Source of the DNA: a virus
Virus record (IMG/VR): IMGVR_UViG_3300029309_000424
Coordinates: 1 to 20,587 of that record
DNA: 20,587 bases
Reading direction: 5' to 3' (one strand)
Shown: positions 9,577-18,566 of the stretch, piece by piece
How positions within the stretch are numbered: position 1 is the first letter of the stretch
Layout: every line of letters starts with the position of its first letter
Made by a program: the position numbers and the translations under genes
The notes under the pieces: model-generated
The model's input: only the letters and a program-made list of their open reading frames with translations
The model's database searches: none
Told to the model about the DNA's origin: nothing

Positions 9577-11982
9577 TTACATAGCTATTATAGGGTCATC
9601 AGGTATATCATCGTCCCAAGTTTGTGTATTTGTTGTTAAAGTAGGTACTTCACGCTGCATTTGTACCCATTCACCTTGCCATTCGTCTTTTACAAAATTA
9701 AAAGTACTTCGCATCATCATATATTTTTTTCCATCAGCATCTACTATTCTGGCTACTGGGCTGACCCATTTACGCTTAGAAGAACCAGTATAAAATTTAT
9801 CATTTGCTGATAATACAGTTGTACCGTTTAATGTCAAAATACTTCTACTTTGATTATTTAAAATTTCTTCACCAAGTAAATCTTGTAGTTTTTTGTTGTA
9901 ACTTATTGTCCAATCAAAATCAGTTGTACCACTATTATAAGCATGTTCGGCTAAACCCCATTTACCAAGAGCATCAACAAACACCCAGTTAGCACCGTCA
10001 TAAACTTTTATTGTCGCAGTACTATTAGCCCCCGAACCATCACCAAAAAATATTTCGCCAACATCATATACAAAAGTGTCGCTACTATCTTGATTTACTT
10101 GAATTTGTTGGGCTGTATTACCATTTGTTTGCGCATTATCCATGACTGGCACAAATCTACTTAAAAATTGCCCATTCATATCTATAGCATCTGTATAATC
10201 AAAAGCATAATAAGAAGGTGTTTGCGCCCTAACCATTGGTGTTGTACCACTTACGTTTGTACCTTGTAACCCCCAACCATTCATAATACGACCATGACTA
10301 TATAAAGCGTTATTACCTTGTGCTTGCATTTGAAAGGTCGTAGCATTATCATAACCAGTAAAGGTCCAAAATTGAAAGTCCCAATCACCTACAAAAGCGG
10401 GGTCAGTTGGAAACAAATTACCAGTAGTGTTTGTAGTCGTAGTCGTGCTACTATCCCAAATATTAATTATTTCGTTTGTACAATTTGCTGGAATAGTTAT
10501 ATAATCTCTTATATATTGTTGGTTATTATCCAAAGGAAACTCATTACCACTATCTATACTCATCCAGCGAATTTCTGCAAAATTAGCAGCTTGAAATTTG
10601 AAAGCTACATAATTATCACTATCACCAAAATTTGAAGAAGCTGGCTTTGCTCGCATACTCCATGCTGTTTCCATAGTTAAATTACCAGTAGACGAATTAC
10701 TAAAACTACCGTAAATACGAACAATAAAACCAGCTAAAGTATCGGCATCTGTAAAACTCATAACATTTAAAATACCGTTACTTTCACTTTGTTGTGTAAA
10801 TTCATGGTAAGCCCCGTCAGTAGGAAAAGCTGTTGGTGTTTGTAAAGTATTATGCGTTACAAATAAAGGGTACCCAGTAAAATGATTTGAACCAGCAAAT
10901 TCTTTGTAGAAAATATTTACTTTTTTAATAGCTGGAATAGCTTGGTATATAGTACCCGCAATCTTTTGTAAGCCAGCGCTTTTTAAAATAGGTTCTATTT
11001 GAGCAAAATACATAGAATAATTGTTATTACCTATAAATTTATGAGTAGTTTGTGAAGACCCTACATGAAAATAAATTCGTGTTGGTATATTAACTACAGT
11101 AGAAAAAGGAATTGAGCCATTTTCGTCTGTATTATATTCGCCAATTTGTGCAAAATAAAATTTATGTTGCCAATAAAAAAACCGCATATTAAAATTTCTA
11201 CATATTATTTTGACCAACTCATATACACTTGGCGGGGTAATTATATTGTTTTCGTCCCTTCGGTGAAGTTCGCGAATATTTATTTTCATATTTGCTAAAG
11301 GGTCATTTGTTACGTCTGGAGAAACACCCATGTCTTCATTCCACCAATTAAAACTTGTACTAATAAAATAATCTTCTAAAGTCGTAGAAGTACTATCAGT
11401 ATCTAATAACTGACCCGTAGCTTCACAGATTAATTTTAACCAAGATGTACTATTACCTATAACACGTTGCCACCCCGCATTATAATAAGTGTCGTTTGCA
11501 GTATAAGGAAAAGTAGGTGCGGTTGAGGTGCCAACTGTAGTTTCACGTAATAATGGTACTTCTTTTAAAGTAGCAATACCATCTACAGCTACCAGCGTAG
11601 TTTCGTTGGGTAAACTAACGTCTTCTTGGGCTTCTAAATCTAAAATAAAATATCCGCACCATAATAGTTTATTACCGTTAGCATGCGTAATAGTAAGCCA
11701 TACGTCTTTTTCATTTTTTGTACTTCTTATATTTTGTAAAAAAAGCTGCATAGCGCCATCAGTTACCATTAAACTTAATGTACATTTAGAAGCTAAAATT
11801 GGTGAATTTTTATCTTGGGCTTTTTCGCTTTCCCAAGATAATTTTAAACCATCTTTTGCTAAAGTCCAAGTTCTCGTATTAGCTGTACCAGTCCATAAAA
11901 TAGCGCAATTATATTGGTCGCCATTGTAAGATTTTACCGTAAACGTAGCATATTGATTTAAATTGTAGGGGTCCCTTGCCAT
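9577..11982 (-). CDS. Tail tip / baseplate protein (801 aa)
   Basis: A large protein immediately after the tape measure, joined to it by a TAATG overlap. The N-terminal 150 residues (YATFTVKSYNGDQYNCAILW, then LKLSWESEKAQDKNSPILAS, and WCGYFILDLEAQED) are beta-rich and resemble the tail-hub-like start of minor tail proteins in uncultured marine siphoviruses. The region about 240-285 (ELHRR, VYELVKIICRNFNMRFFYW) looks like a gp27/hub-type domain that docks under the tail tube. The remaining 500 residues are Thr/Asn-rich beta structure, probably adhesin-like. The distal tail protein and hub functions may be combined here, since no separate Dit gene is seen. Role assigned mainly by position. Confidence 0.65.
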   Translation of the reverse strand: MARDPYNLNQYATFTVKSYNGDQYNCAILWTGTANTRTWTLAKDGLKLSWESEKAQDKNSPILASKCTLSLMVTDGAMQLFLQNIRSTKNEKDVWLTITHANGNKLLWCGYFILDLEAQEDVSLPNETTLVAVDGIATLKEVPLLRETTVGTSTAPTFPYTANDTYYNAGWQRVIGNSTSWLKLICEATGQLLDTDSTSTTLEDYFISTSFNWWNEDMGVSPDVTNDPLANMKINIRELHRRDENNIITPPSVYELVKIICRNFNMRFFYWQHKFYFAQIGEYNTDENGSIPFSTVVNIPTRIYFHVGSSQTTHKFIGNNNYSMYFAQIEPILKSAGLQKIAGTIYQAIPAIKKVNIFYKEFAGSNHFTGYPLFVTHNTLQTPTAFPTDGAYHEFTQQSESNGILNVMSFTDADTLAGFIVRIYGSFSNSSTGNLTMETAWSMRAKPASSNFGDSDNYVAFKFQAANFAEIRWMSIDSGNEFPLDNNQQYIRDYITIPANCTNEIINIWDSSTTTTTNTTGNLFPTDPAFVGDWDFQFWTFTGYDNATTFQMQAQGNNALYSHGRIMNGWGLQGTNVSGTTPMVRAQTPSYYAFDYTDAIDMNGQFLSRFVPVMDNAQTNGNTAQQIQVNQDSSDTFVYDVGEIFFGDGSGANSTATIKVYDGANWVFVDALGKWGLAEHAYNSGTTDFDWTISYNKKLQDLLGEEILNNQSRSILTLNGTTVLSANDKFYTGSSKRKWVSPVARIVDADGKKYMMMRSTFNFVKDEWQGEWVQMQREVPTLTTNTQTWDDDIPDDPIIAM

Positions 11983-14900
11983 TATGTTGTTCTTAATCTG
12001 TTAATACTTTCACTTTGATTTGATAAAAATATATCGTTTCCAGTCAATCTACCAAATATTTGTATTTTTTGTTGGTTTTGACCCATTAAGCTTTTTAATT
12101 TGTTTAAAGGTGCTACCACTTCGGGGTTACCAGTACCCGCCCCAATATTATCACCAACTATAGCATTTGTTGGTCCCGAAACAATACCACCTTCTGCTAA
12201 AGGTATTGGCGTAGAAGCTATCAAAGCTATTTGCGCTGCACCTAAAGCCCCAATAATACCAGCTGCTATTGGTCCACCAAAAATACCAGTTTGTGCAAAA
12301 GCTTTCATAATAGCGGCAGCTGTATTTTGTATAACAGATGTAATTGCTATAGCTTTATCTGTAATAGCTGCACGCTTTTTAATTGCTCTAAGTTTTTTGT
12401 CAGCTGCGTCTTCTACAGCTACTCGTTCATCTGCTATTTTTCCTTGCAAAATTGCCAAAGCACGTTGTCTTTGTTCTTCAGTCATTGAAGAATTATTTAT
12501 CATTTCAGTTTCTCTACGTTCTTTTTCGTCTATTTCGTCTAAATCTCGTTTCTTTTTATTTTCGGCTATAATTTCTGCGCGTTTATTAAAAGCTTCAAAA
12601 GCGCCTATAGCTGCGTCCATAGCATTAGCTATTGTTTCGCCACTTTCTTCAAAAATTTCACTTAAAGTTTTACCGAATATTTTTAACTTAGGAAAAAATT
12701 TATCTACAAGTTGTATGAAAGCTGGTAATTCTTGTTTTGTGGTATTACCTATAGCGTTATTATATTCGTCTTGTTTTTCTTTTAATTCAGCTGTAGCTTT
12801 TTTAAAATCAGCTAATTGTTGTGTATAATCTTCACCGCTTATAATAGCTTTTTTAAGTTCGGCATCAGCTGTACTTACAGCATTTGTTAATTCAGTAAAT
12901 GGGTTTTTTTCGTCATTTGCTACTATTCCAAGTAAGTCATTATATTCTTTTGTATGTTTTGTTAATTCATCTTGGGCATCTAATAGTTTTTGTTTTGCTT
13001 TCATTAAAGCTTCATCAGTAGCACCCCCATTAATCATTAAAGTACGTAAAGCTTCTTCAGCGTCATTTACTTTCTTTTGTAATTTTTGAAATTCAGTAGA
13101 TACGTCTGATAAAGTTCCGCTAAAATCTTGAAACTTATTTTTATCAAAAAATTTATCAACATTACCGCCTTCACTCATATCAATTTCTTCAGCAGCTCTT
13201 TTATTTAAATCGTCTATTTCTTTATTTACTTCATCTAATTTCTTTGTAAAAGTTTTAATATCAGCGTTAAATTCAGCTACATTTTCTCTAGCTTCTTTTA
13301 CCATACCTTTTATGATATGATTACCAGATTTTTGATTTGCCTTAATAAAAATTTCTTGTTCTTGTTTTTCTACTTTCAAATCAGCAATTTTTTTAGCCAA
13401 AACTTCAGCTTCAGCTTGTGCTATTAAAGTTTTAGTATAAAGTTCTGTTGCTTTAGTAAGTTGTATCAAGTCAAGCTTACTTGCATTTAAAGCCCCATAG
13501 TATTGCGGTGAAATTTGTTTTAGTTCGTTTAATACTCTTTTTTTAGTGGCTAAGCTTACATTTTCGTCTTTTAATTGGTTAGTCAATAATCTAACACGTT
13601 CAACTTGCGAACCTACATTTCGTCTTACTTCAGCATCTACTTCAGCAATCGCGTCCATACTTGAACGTACTTTATCAGTATTAAAAGCCCAGTCTTTTAA
13701 AGCAAGAACAATACCGCCTATAGCTACAGCTAAAGCTACGTAGGGGTTAGCCAAAGCAGCCAATCTAAGCATATTCATAACCTTTATTACTGTCATACCT
13801 ATTGTAACCAACTTACCAAATATAAATACAAGAGGACCTACAGCCGCAGCTATTGCCATAAACTGTCCGATAGTTCTTTTTTGACTATCAGATAAACCAC
13901 TAAAAGACCTTGCTAAAGTTGAAATCATATTAGCAAGACTTCTAATAACTGGAGCCAAACTATCACCTAATTGCGTACCCGCAACTTTTAAATCATTAAA
14001 AGCTTGTTTCATTTGAAAGCCCGCTGTATTTGCAGTAATACTAAAAGCATTATCTACAAAACCTTGCTTTCTTGCTAAATCATCTAAAATATCTACGTAA
14101 GTTTCTGTTTGATTACCTAAAACACCCATAACACCTTTTAAAGCTTGCGACTTAGTAAAAAATTCACTAAGCTGCATATTATTAGCTTTAAATTCTTGGT
14201 CTAAAAAGATTAAGGTTTTTTGTAATCCTTCACTACCAAGCATTTTACGCAAACCGTCCGCTGACAAACCAATTTTAGCTAAAGCTTTTTCTTGTATCGG
14301 TGCAATTTTTGCAAAACTCATCATAACCGCACCAAAACCAGTTGTAGCGCTTGTAGCGTCACCAGTAGTCTTAGTATAAGTAGAAATAAAAGCCCCTACT
14401 TCTTCAAATGATATACCCAGATTAGCTGATAAACCTAAATTAGTTCCAAGTACTTGCGCAAGTTCTTCAGACTTAAACATACCAGTTTGAACCATACCAC
14501 CAAAAACATCAAGTGCTTCAGCTGCACTTAGAGTTTCTACACCGTAAGCATTTTGCGCAGCCGCTACAGTTTTAGATAAAGCTTCCATTTCACCAAGTCC
14601 AGCCGCAGTACCTTTTGACACCATTTCTAAAGCCATCAAAGCGTTTTCACCTTTTAAACCAGCTGAAGTTAAAAAGAATAAAGCATCAGCAAGTTCTTTA
14701 GGCGAACGCGCAGTTTCACCAGATAGTTCAAGCACCCTATCCTTCATACCTCTTACTTCTTCAGCTGATAAACCTACTAAAGTTTGTATTTTAGTCATTG
14801 AAGTATCAAAGTCCATAGATAATTTACCAGCTGCCGCACCTACAGCTACTAAAGGTAAAGTAATATTCTGGGTCATATTACGACCTAATTTTTGCATGTT

Positions 14901-15008
14901 TTTGCCAAATTTGTTTACGCTTCGTTCAGCTTTTTTCATAGCTTTATCAAAGCCCTTCATATCGGCACCAAATACCATTGTCAATAAACCTATTGCTTTA
15001 CTTGCCAT
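11982..15008 (-). CDS. Tape measure protein
   Basis: A 1008-residue protein with the features of TP901-type tape measures. It has an N-terminal helical region with KAMKKAERSVNKFGKNMQKL, then the conserved core (about 65-380) containing LSGETARSPKELADALFFLT. Hydrophobic stretches follow at about 385-460, a long charged coiled coil at about 480-880, and a final Gly/Ala-rich hydrophobic region at about 905-950 ending with GGIVSGPTNAIVGDNI. It sets tail length; at the usual ratio of about 1.5 angstrom per residue the tail would be near 150 nm, a typical siphovirus. The gene overlaps the end of the chaperone frame by 11 bases, as in lambda-like phages. Confidence 0.92.
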   Translation of the reverse strand: MASKAIGLLTMVFGADMKGFDKAMKKAERSVNKFGKNMQKLGRNMTQNITLPLVAVGAAAGKLSMDFDTSMTKIQTLVGLSAEEVRGMKDRVLELSGETARSPKELADALFFLTSAGLKGENALMALEMVSKGTAAGLGEMEALSKTVAAAQNAYGVETLSAAEALDVFGGMVQTGMFKSEELAQVLGTNLGLSANLGISFEEVGAFISTYTKTTGDATSATTGFGAVMMSFAKIAPIQEKALAKIGLSADGLRKMLGSEGLQKTLIFLDQEFKANNMQLSEFFTKSQALKGVMGVLGNQTETYVDILDDLARKQGFVDNAFSITANTAGFQMKQAFNDLKVAGTQLGDSLAPVIRSLANMISTLARSFSGLSDSQKRTIGQFMAIAAAVGPLVFIFGKLVTIGMTVIKVMNMLRLAALANPYVALAVAIGGIVLALKDWAFNTDKVRSSMDAIAEVDAEVRRNVGSQVERVRLLTNQLKDENVSLATKKRVLNELKQISPQYYGALNASKLDLIQLTKATELYTKTLIAQAEAEVLAKKIADLKVEKQEQEIFIKANQKSGNHIIKGMVKEARENVAEFNADIKTFTKKLDEVNKEIDDLNKRAAEEIDMSEGGNVDKFFDKNKFQDFSGTLSDVSTEFQKLQKKVNDAEEALRTLMINGGATDEALMKAKQKLLDAQDELTKHTKEYNDLLGIVANDEKNPFTELTNAVSTADAELKKAIISGEDYTQQLADFKKATAELKEKQDEYNNAIGNTTKQELPAFIQLVDKFFPKLKIFGKTLSEIFEESGETIANAMDAAIGAFEAFNKRAEIIAENKKKRDLDEIDEKERRETEMINNSSMTEEQRQRALAILQGKIADERVAVEDAADKKLRAIKKRAAITDKAIAITSVIQNTAAAIMKAFAQTGIFGGPIAAGIIGALGAAQIALIASTPIPLAEGGIVSGPTNAIVGDNIGAGTGNPEVVAPLNKLKSLMGQNQQKIQIFGRLTGNDIFLSNQSESINRLRTT

Positions 15009-15683
15009 TTGATTTGTTTTTTAATTTATAGTCTTCTAATTTTTTTATGTATTCTGCATAGTCTTTGGCTACTTTATTTTCTTTTTCTTTTTCTACCTCC
15101 CAATCAAATTTAATTAAATCGGTTATTTTTAATCTTTTACCACTTGGTACATGAACATTTAATAAAAGCCATGTTTGCCACCTTGTACGTTCCCAGTCTT
15201 GACGTTCTTTTAAGTTTAATTTTTTATAAAAACCATTCATTTTTGACCAAAAATATTTAGGCAACATGTTAAAAAAATCTTCTGGGCGCATGTTCATTTC
15301 ACCAAAAGCTATTTCAAATATTCTAGCCCAAGTAAGAACTTCTACGCTTTCTTTGTCTTCTTGGGCTTCTTCTTTTTTTCCTCAAAACCATTTGTCATTT
15401 GACTTGCTAAAACATTAAAAACGCTTTCCATGCAGTCCCAGTTACCATCAAATAAATCAGCTAAATCGTCTATACTCATGTCAAATTTTTTCTTAGCCAC
15501 CCTGCACCCGTCTTGAATGCCGCAATAACATAAAGATAAGGCACTATTTAAATCCATGCCTTCACCTATATTTTGTAAGTCTGCTAATTTTGTATTTGTC
15601 ATTAAACTATATTTTCTTAAAGCATTAAACCCAAATTTTATTGGAAAATCTTTATCACCTATTGTAATTACTTCATATTCCAT
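14998..15683 (-). CDS. Tail assembly chaperone fusion made by -1 frameshift (gpGT-like)
   Basis: The first 104 residues are shared with the 113-residue chaperone. At A AAA AAG (15378-15372) a -1 shift leads into a second frame open from 15381 to the stop at 14998, giving 124 more residues (228 in all). The second part begins EEAQEDKESVEVLTWARIFE and continues through RPEDFFNMLPKYFWSKMNGF, with the helical, Trp/Phe-rich character of gpT-type domains. Its strong match to such domains begins upstream of the only ATG (15297), so the stand-alone 99-codon reading is almost certainly incomplete. The short and fused forms together would coat and chaperone the tape measure, encoded next. Confidence 0.82.
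15325..15378 (-). promoter_or_regulatory. Programmed -1 frameshift signal: slippery site plus stem
   Basis: In frame with the chaperone the bases read GAA AAA AAG, containing the heptamer A AAA AAG (15378-15372), the slippery sequence used in E. coli dnaX. After a 4-base spacer comes AGCCCAAG (15367-15360), which pairs perfectly with CTTGGGCT (15332-15325) across a 27-base loop. The loop's ends can extend the stem further with a bulge (AAGAC with GTTCTT). The zero-frame stop lies within the loop. This is the expected layout for stimulated -1 frameshifting. Confidence 0.85.
15342..15683 (-). CDS. Tail assembly chaperone, short form (gpG-like)
   Basis: A 113-residue protein (normal termination product) starting MEYEVITIGDKDFPIKFGFN. 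The beta-strand start followed by a helical middle (LRKYSLMTNTKLADLQNIGE, ALSLCYCGIQDGCRV, DLADLFDGNW) resembles Gram-positive and Bacteroidetes tail assembly chaperones. It ends in a lysine-rich tail encoded by the A-rich stretch that also carries the slippery site, with a TAG stop at 15344-15342. Its position between tail tube and tape measure supports the role. In known phages the short form is made in large excess over the frameshift form, which should hold here too. Confidence 0.85.
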   Translation of the reverse strand: MEYEVITIGDKDFPIKFGFNALRKYSLMTNTKLADLQNIGEGMDLNSALSLCYCGIQDGCRVAKKKFDMSIDDLADLFDGNWDCMESVFNVLASQMTNGFEEKKKKPKKTKKA

Positions 15684-15705
15684 TTTTTTTCTTTTTTTTG
15701 ATTAA

Positions 15706-15760
15706 TAAAAAAGGTTCACCAAGCCGCCAATCAAGAAAAAGAAAGGCGCTTGGTTCCCCT
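15706..15760 (-). terminator. Terminator or attenuator after the tail tube gene
   Basis: Just after the tail tube stop the transcript can fold AGGGGAACCAAGCGCC with GGCGGCTTGGTGAACCT. The core ACCAAGC/GCTTGGT is perfect; GCC/GGC continues it past one bulged G, and there is a small internal loop near the base. The hairpin is followed by TTTTTT (15712 downward). Downstream chaperone and tape measure genes have no visible promoter of their own, so this probably terminates only part of the transcripts and lowers expression of the following genes relative to the abundant tube protein. Confidence 0.7.
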
Positions 15761-15771
15761 AAATTTCTGTA

Positions 15772-16206
15772 TTAAGATACAGTTTGTGTTATTGCACCAG
15801 TACCAGTAAAGTTTAAGCTGTAAGTAGCTGTGTCTTCAGTTGGCGCTGTTACAGAAAAACTATCAAGAAATACACTACCTTCATAGTAAGTATCACCAGT
15901 TGCACCACCAGTATTACCAAATCTAAGTGTTAAAGCTGTTCTATTTGTTATCATATTTGATAATACTAAATCGTCTGCACCGTTTGTAAGCGCTGACCCC
16001 GCAGAATCAGTCCAACAGTATGCACCGTCTAAAGATACTGTAAAATCTCTAAGACCTTCCAGTACTTCTTTAAAACCGTTACTTTCTTTATTTGTTATTT
16101 CTCTTACTGAATGGTTTAAGTTTAGTGTTCCATTCTGCGCGAAAGCTACTAAAATATTAGTAGTACTATCGTACACTTTTATATCTGTTCCATTTAAAAT
16201 TGCCAT
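15772..16206 (-). CDS. Major tail tube protein (TP901-1-like)
   Basis: A 144-residue protein with the TP901-1/Phage_tail_2 pattern: MAILNGTDIKVY at the start, a strand pair NGTLNLNHSVREITNKES, then GFKEVLEGLRDFTVSLDGAY, and the Thr/Ser-rich C-terminal strands EGSVFLDSFSVTAPTEDTAT and YSLNFTGTG. Hexameric rings of this protein build the tail tube. Length is typical of the family. An A-rich leader (AAAATAAAATAAA-like) precedes the ATG and there is no Shine-Dalgarno sequence. A hairpin terminator follows, in keeping with the need for many copies. Confidence 0.88.
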   Translation of the reverse strand: MAILNGTDIKVYDSTTNILVAFAQNGTLNLNHSVREITNKESNGFKEVLEGLRDFTVSLDGAYCWTDSAGSALTNGADDLVLSNMITNRTALTLRFGNTGGATGDTYYEGSVFLDSFSVTAPTEDTATYSLNFTGTGAITQTVS

Positions 16207-18328: not shown

Positions 18329-18507
18329 TTTTTTGTGTTTTTTTACAATTTAACATAATAATTTTTTTGTCTTTTTTCTTAATTTTTTCTTCTCTAGTGT
18401 TTTGCTTGTATTGCAATATCTAAAGTTTTTAATATACATATTCGCCAGATAACCTAAAGTTGCTTAAAACGCTTTTAAATACTGTTAAAAACGATATGTA
18501 GTTTTTA
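18329..18507 (-). other. Gap between capsid terminator and connector gene
   Basis: This stretch holds no convincing gene and no TAnnTTTG promoter. It is A/T-rich with short runs of A and T and one small palindrome (TATTGCAATA near 18410). A 29-codon Lys-rich frame (18439 to 18350) is present but has no leader or coupling. The region could hold a non-consensus promoter or act as spacer for transcripts that read through the terminator. Confidence 0.4.
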
Positions 18508-18552
18508 ATAAAAAGGTGGAAAAAAGGGTAAAAAAACCCAATTTTCCAACCT
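18508..18552 (-). terminator. Terminator or attenuator after the capsid gene
   Basis: About 14 bases after the major capsid stop the transcript can fold AGGTTGGAAAATTGGGT with ACCCTTTTTTCCACCT (one bulge and two mismatches, GC-rich ends AGG/CCT and GGGT/ACCC) around a short T loop, followed by TTTTT. This is a strong hairpin for such AT-rich DNA. Because no promoter is evident downstream, it likely lets part of the transcripts through. Confidence 0.8.
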
Positions 18553-18566
18553 CTAAAAATGTAAAA

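Follow-up and report, generated by a model that had tools for sequence, protein, structure and literature searches.

Organisation of the tail gene locus

The DNA analysed here, a virus record of 20.6 kb (20,587 nt; IMG/VR IMGVR_UViG_3300029309_000424) referred to below as the window, carries on its minus strand two overlapping reading frames, G and T, between the genes for the major tail protein and the tape measure protein. The features of this region, in the order of transcription, are:

15772..16206, minus strand: major tail (tube) protein gene, upstream of G (Phage_tail_2, PF06199, E 6.4e-12; phrog_1407, major tail protein)
15342..15683, minus strand: gene G, a putative tail assembly chaperone of 113 aa by standard translation (open reading frame; PHROG and Pfam matches in relatives; predicted structure)
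15372..15378, minus strand: slippery heptamer A AAA AAG in the X XXY YYZ phase (window sequence; conservation in relatives)
15360..15367, minus strand: 5' arm of the putative stimulatory stem, AGCCCAAG, with a conserved core CCCAAG that starts 6 nt past the heptamer (fold; relatives)
15325..15332, minus strand: 3' arm of the same stem, CTTGGGCT, within the T codons for L-T-W-A (fold; relatives)
14998..15372, minus strand: T domain, 124 residues in the -1 frame, the C-terminal part of the predicted 228-aa G-T fusion (open frame; conserved in relatives)
11982..15008, minus strand: tape measure gene, 1008 aa, downstream, its start overlapping the end of the T frame (PhageMin_Tail, PF10145, E 7.6e-18; many tape measure PHROGs)

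The G frame runs from an ATG at 15683 to a TAG at 15342. The T frame is open from 15381, before the slip site, to 14998, and overlaps the G frame at the heptamer, the first A of which is the third codon position of G. Translation through both frames by a -1 shift would give a protein of 228 aa with the junction at residues 104/105. This arrangement had been put forward in the initial annotation as a hidden -1 frameshift with an in-phase A AAA AAG, a 4-nt spacer and an 8-bp stem, and all of its coordinates agree with the minus strand sequence. One point needed amending: conserved residues do precede the T-frame start, as claimed, but the ATG at 15297, described as the only one, is the first of several. 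Upstream of it the T frame of the window contains no ATG, GTG or TTG.

The sequence A AAA AAG occurs 31 times on the minus strand of the window, so the heptamer by itself proves nothing. What exceeds chance is that this copy is in phase, lies within the overlap, is followed by the stem and, most of all, is conserved. In the window, the stem AGCCCAAG/CTTGGGCT has 8 bp, begins after a 4-nt spacer and encloses a loop of 27 nt; the hairpin has a predicted folding energy of -14.4 kcal/mol (z = -3.7), which none of 200 shuffled sequences equalled.

The order major tail protein, G, T and tape measure is the canonical place of a G/GT pair. Further upstream in the window are genes for a capsid protein (PF05065), a head-tail adaptor, a head closure protein, a Neck1 protein and a tail terminator. 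The capsid gene is followed by a gap of 238 nt (18329-18566) that folds strongly (-43.3 kcal/mol) and has a terminator-like hairpin at its beginning. The host is likely to belong to the Bacteroidota, since one relative sits in a Flavobacteriales metagenome bin and distant homologues of T are present in Cellulophaga and Bacteroides phages.

Identity of the G and T proteins

Profile searches were done with the window proteins and with those of 28 relatives. G of the window matched only phrog_2115 ('tail protein', E 0.0009), a family that also matched G in 27 of the 28 relatives. Weak matches to Phage_TAC_12 were obtained for G in nine of these relatives (best E 0.00098), and phrog_183 ('tail chaperone protein') matched in six. 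For T, phrog_16333 matched in all 28 relatives, while the matches to Phage_TAC_6 (6/28, best E 0.0013) and to Phage_tail_T, the family of lambda T (4/28, best E 0.041), were weak and did not include T of the window. Pfam gave no match for the window's own G or T. NCBIfam regulator matches for G were judged spurious, and a Pfam RNase_T match on the T frame (E 0.14) fell below the cut-off and was ignored.

The AlphaFold2 model of G (pLDDT 82) has a beta hairpin followed by helices. Compared with a library of predicted viral structures, it matched predicted tail assembly chaperones (E 4.7e-5, TM about 0.66); fold searches of the PDB with the G and T models, and a sequence search of the PDB, gave no match. 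Homology of G and T to known chaperone families is thus distant and probable rather than proven; the proposal that they work like G and GT draws on gene architecture and conservation.

Conservation of the frame relation and the slippery heptamer

Relatives were collected by tape measure and chaperone searches of virus contigs, together with one genome-contig match and four deposited phage records. Both frames were found at 293 loci, of which 167 are distinct around the junction; nearly all are uncultured virus contigs. T lies in the -1 frame relative to G in 166 of the 167, the sole exception being Cellulophaga phage phi39:1, and an in-frame fusion of G and T was found in none. As the initial annotation had anticipated for ordinary gene calls, deposited relatives list two separate hypothetical proteins.

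A comparison of heptamer and stem across related phages had been suggested as a check, and both proved to be widely retained. The heptamer is A AAA AAG in 146 of the 167 distinct relatives, A AAA AAA in 13, G GGA AAG in four, G GGA AAC in two and A AAA AAT in one, with none in the remaining one; where A AAA AAG has been lost, another canonical slippery heptamer is usually found instead. Among a first set of 79 relatives, the two Lys codons at the slip site are AAA AAG in 74, whereas in the rest of G in the same relatives AAA outnumbers AAG by 799 to 296. The heptamer is therefore kept beyond what the protein needs.

In the relative that has no heptamer (L008), one base relative to L007, a change of CCC to CCT (L008 1880-1910), creates a stop in the -1 frame directly past the slip site, making it the only relative whose fusion would end early. 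This could reflect either a genuine loss or an error in the sequence. In phi39:1 (L027 3949-3966), T lies in the +1 or -2 frame behind a run of eight A, which is unique among the relatives; a different type of frameshift and a homopolymer miscount in the record are both possible. The phi39:1 record carries MS/MS virion notes on neighbouring proteins and none on gp19 or gp20. In a group more distantly related through the tape measure (L021-L026), the tape measure gene is preceded by unrelated frames, one G-like and one T-like, that likewise overlap in the -1 relation.

Compensated changes in the downstream stem

An exact 6-bp core stem starts exactly 6 nt past the heptamer in 70 of the 79 relatives of the first set, against a mean of 0.3 expected after shuffling of the downstream sequence. 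When the cores were redealt among the relatives, a mean of 29 and a maximum of 41 matched. The core occurs in the compensatory forms GCCAAG/CTTGGC, CCCAAG/CTTGGG, GCCAGC/GCTGGC and CCCAGG/CCTGGG, and the larger set adds the core types GCCAAC and GCCCCG. In 26 representatives all 156 pair cells (100%) are standard pairs, with changes on both sides at three of the six pairs, and sliding the stem partner destroys the pairing. Because the 3' arm shares bases with the T codons for T-W and the next residue, changes in it affect the protein as well, and the matched changes in the stem are the more telling for it. The outermost core pair changed only about three times on the tree (two of the changes on starred branches), so that part of the covariation count reflects few independent events, and an independent-pairs test of this pair gave no significance, the independent changes being too few. 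The GCC/CCC stem is absent from the L013-L017 group.

Coding of the junction segment

The stretch of the T frame that separates the slip site from the first ATG encodes a conserved segment of the form (L)(T/S)W..(L/F)E.IA(F/L)G, for example LTW..FEIAFG. Its coding was examined in 73 relatives with the W as anchor. None of the 73 has a Met within nine codons past the conserved W, and 70 have no T-frame start codon upstream of it; in the remaining three an ATG does occur, but only before the heptamer. Substitutions within this segment, assigned to T-frame codon positions, number 1255 at the third position against 510 and 362 at the others, and in the T frame they are synonymous more often than not. 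By this comparative measure the segment is translated in the T frame, given the codon-position bias and the excess of synonymous changes, and only a frameshift from G readily explains such translation.

These results bear directly on the possibility that T is a separate gene of 99 aa, started at the ATG at 15297 without any frameshift, for instance through translational coupling. The ATG is there, and gene callers choose such starts in the relatives. The conserved segment, however, precedes the first ATG in 73/73 relatives and shows the T-frame codon-position bias, a start codon before the W is lacking in 70/73, and the conserved heptamer and stem would have no explanation. We regard a separate start as very improbable.

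Just as little weight can be given to a change of frame through slippage of RNA polymerase on the A run (A7G) in place of a ribosomal event. Runs of A are slippery for polymerases, and the window has seven A in succession; however, what the relatives keep is the ribosomal heptamer and not the run, which is six A long in GGA AAA AAG and only three in G GGA AAG and G GGA AAC. Transcriptional slippage is disfavoured because the heptamer is retained when the run shrinks to three A (G GGA AAG), and it would need neither the X XXY YYZ phase nor the downstream stem, both of which are conserved. A sequencing or assembly error that split one gene, as the homopolymer adjoining the frame change might suggest, is most improbable, the same -1 relation being found in 166 of 167 independent distinct regions with none fused in one frame.

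Taken together, the gene order, the near-universal -1 relation, the heptamer, the compensated stem and the junction residues bear out the initial reading of a -1 frameshift of the lambda G/GT type. On this sequence evidence, the two frames almost certainly encode the G/GT tail assembly chaperone pair of a long-tailed phage, produced through a -1 frameshift at A AAA AAG. We infer the occurrence and rate of slippage, and the roles of the products in assembly, as follows. Most ribosomes would terminate at 15342, having made G (113 aa). A minority, assisted by the stem that begins 4 nt downstream of A AAA AAG (its conserved core 6 nt), would slip back by one base at this heptamer, both Lys tRNAs pairing again as AAA AAA, and would continue in the -1 frame to give GT of 228 aa. 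By analogy with lambda, the tape measure protein may be coated by many copies of G and few of GT, with major tail subunits recruited through the T part.

A pseudoknot in the leader of G

The gap between the stop codon of the major tail gene and the start of G is 88 nt in the window and folds as a strong hairpin, the loop of which is complementary to the sequence in front of G. The features of this leader are:

15688-15760, minus strand: predicted H-type leader pseudoknot, whole (conserved in relatives)
15745..15760, minus strand: stem 1, 5' arm, AGGGGAACCAAGCGCC (leader fold)
15729..15744, minus strand: stem 2, 5' arm, the hairpin loop UUUCUUUUUCUUGAUU (complementarity to 15703-15688)
15712..15728, minus strand: stem 1, 3' arm (leader fold)
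15688..15703, minus strand: stem 2, 3' arm, AAUCAAAAAAAAGAAA, A-rich, its end 4 nt short of the G start codon (complementarity)

Of the 16 positions of UUUCUUUUUCUUGAUU in the window (15744-15729), 15 are complementary to AAUCAAAAAAAAGAAA (15703-15688; z -5.3; 0/300 shuffles). Counting stem 2 pairs on a single MAFFT alignment failed, as divergent rows misalign, and alignment-free tests of complementarity were therefore used. The pairing of loop and leader beats shuffled sequences at p <= 0.01 in 91 of 109 distinct leaders. The 93 leaders that pass at p <= 0.02 contain 22 different complementary stem 2 pairs. In 90 of these 93 the distance from the end of stem 2 to the start codon is 0-4 nt, and in 68 the upstream stop codon is followed after 5-7 nt by the beginning of stem 1. 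When each lineage was represented by a single leader (n = 15) and the partners were permuted, none of 5000 permutations reached the observed total. Stem 1 has changes on both sides at five pairs within one clade. The reality of the structure is thus strongly supported by the comparison of leaders.

The same combination was found at none of the other gene starts of the window, and Rfam gave no credible match for the window region or for nine relatives; a match to mir-4679 (E 0.68, other strand) was put down to chance. No terminator was found when the leader was scanned for one, and this was rejected as the general role of the leader hairpin since most relatives have no U tract after it. The pseudoknot is absent, or the leader too short for it, in the L013 group, the L010/L011 group and the gut phages. 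Instead of the pseudoknot, the leaders of L013-L017 (for example L013 3239-3293) have a small A/U hairpin, UUUCUUUA...UAAAGAAA, a short distance upstream of the start of G.

We think it reasonably likely that this apparently undescribed pseudoknot either sequesters the A-rich initiation region and couples translation of G, and so of GT, to ribosomes finishing the major tail gene, or is a feedback target of a tail protein. In the simplest reading, the pseudoknot would hide the initiation region of G, and a ribosome finishing the major tail gene would open stem 1, which would couple the two genes. Feedback by a tail protein on the pseudoknot, or an activating role, are alternatives to such coupling. 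If the pseudoknot has a role of this kind, it would act together with the frameshift stem to set the ratio of major tail protein, G and GT, with two RNA elements in about 450 bases.

Comparison with known systems

In lambda (PMC5009743), G and GT are made at a ratio of about 30:1; both bind the tape measure protein, and the binding partner of T is the major tail subunit. Such chaperones were surveyed by Xu, Hendrix and Duda (2004), as cited in PMC5009743, and two chaperone frameshifts examined in PMC3711429 gave values of 6-7%.

The locus described here shares with lambda G/GT the gene order, the overlapping frames, a -1 shift near the end of G, a T without a start of its own and a canonical heptamer. 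It differs in its heptamer, A AAA AAG, in a compact conserved downstream hairpin and in a probable Bacteroidota host as opposed to Enterobacteria; direct sequence similarity to lambda G/GT was not found. The lambda heptamer, G GGA AAG, is also used by a few of the relatives.

With the E. coli dnaX signal (PMC3711429) the locus has in common A AAA AAG followed by a hairpin a few bases downstream. The dnaX signal belongs to another gene with another purpose and has its own upstream Shine-Dalgarno-like stimulator. No conserved stimulator of that kind was found here; the GAGG that abuts the heptamer in the window is not kept in the aligned codons of the relatives.

A pseudoknot in the untranslated leader of T4 gene 32 governs its translation. 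The pseudoknot of G resembles it in occupying an untranslated phage leader. It differs in that, in most relatives, helix 2 stops 0-4 nt short of the start codon and stem 1 starts 5-7 nt past the stop codon upstream, and in that the gene encodes a tail chaperone.

We have high confidence that the frameshift is real; it is of an ordinary kind. What a specialist would find new is the leader element, no published description of it having been found in a limited open-access literature. To our knowledge, work on the stoichiometry of tail assembly has dealt almost exclusively with the frameshift step; a leader pseudoknot that proved functional would add a new type of control. The comparisons place a large group of uncultured marine phages, probably infecting Bacteroidota, firmly in the G/GT scheme. 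The compact signal (A AAA AAG, a 6-nt spacer to the core and a GCC/CCC stem) could allow annotation pipelines to join two 'unknown' genes, and the natural variants amount to ready-made heptamer and stem mutants for testing.

The deposited relatives include two phages, Bacteroides phage F4 and Cellulophaga phage phi39:1, in each of which a distant homologue of T follows a G-like gene and precedes the tape measure gene; the pair is annotated in both as two hypothetical proteins. Their leaders are too short for the pseudoknot, and phi39:1 differs further in its T frame (+1 or -2). Phage F4 (L109 2178-2830) is cultured and has the -1 arrangement, with A AAA AAA in phase, and offers a usable experimental system.
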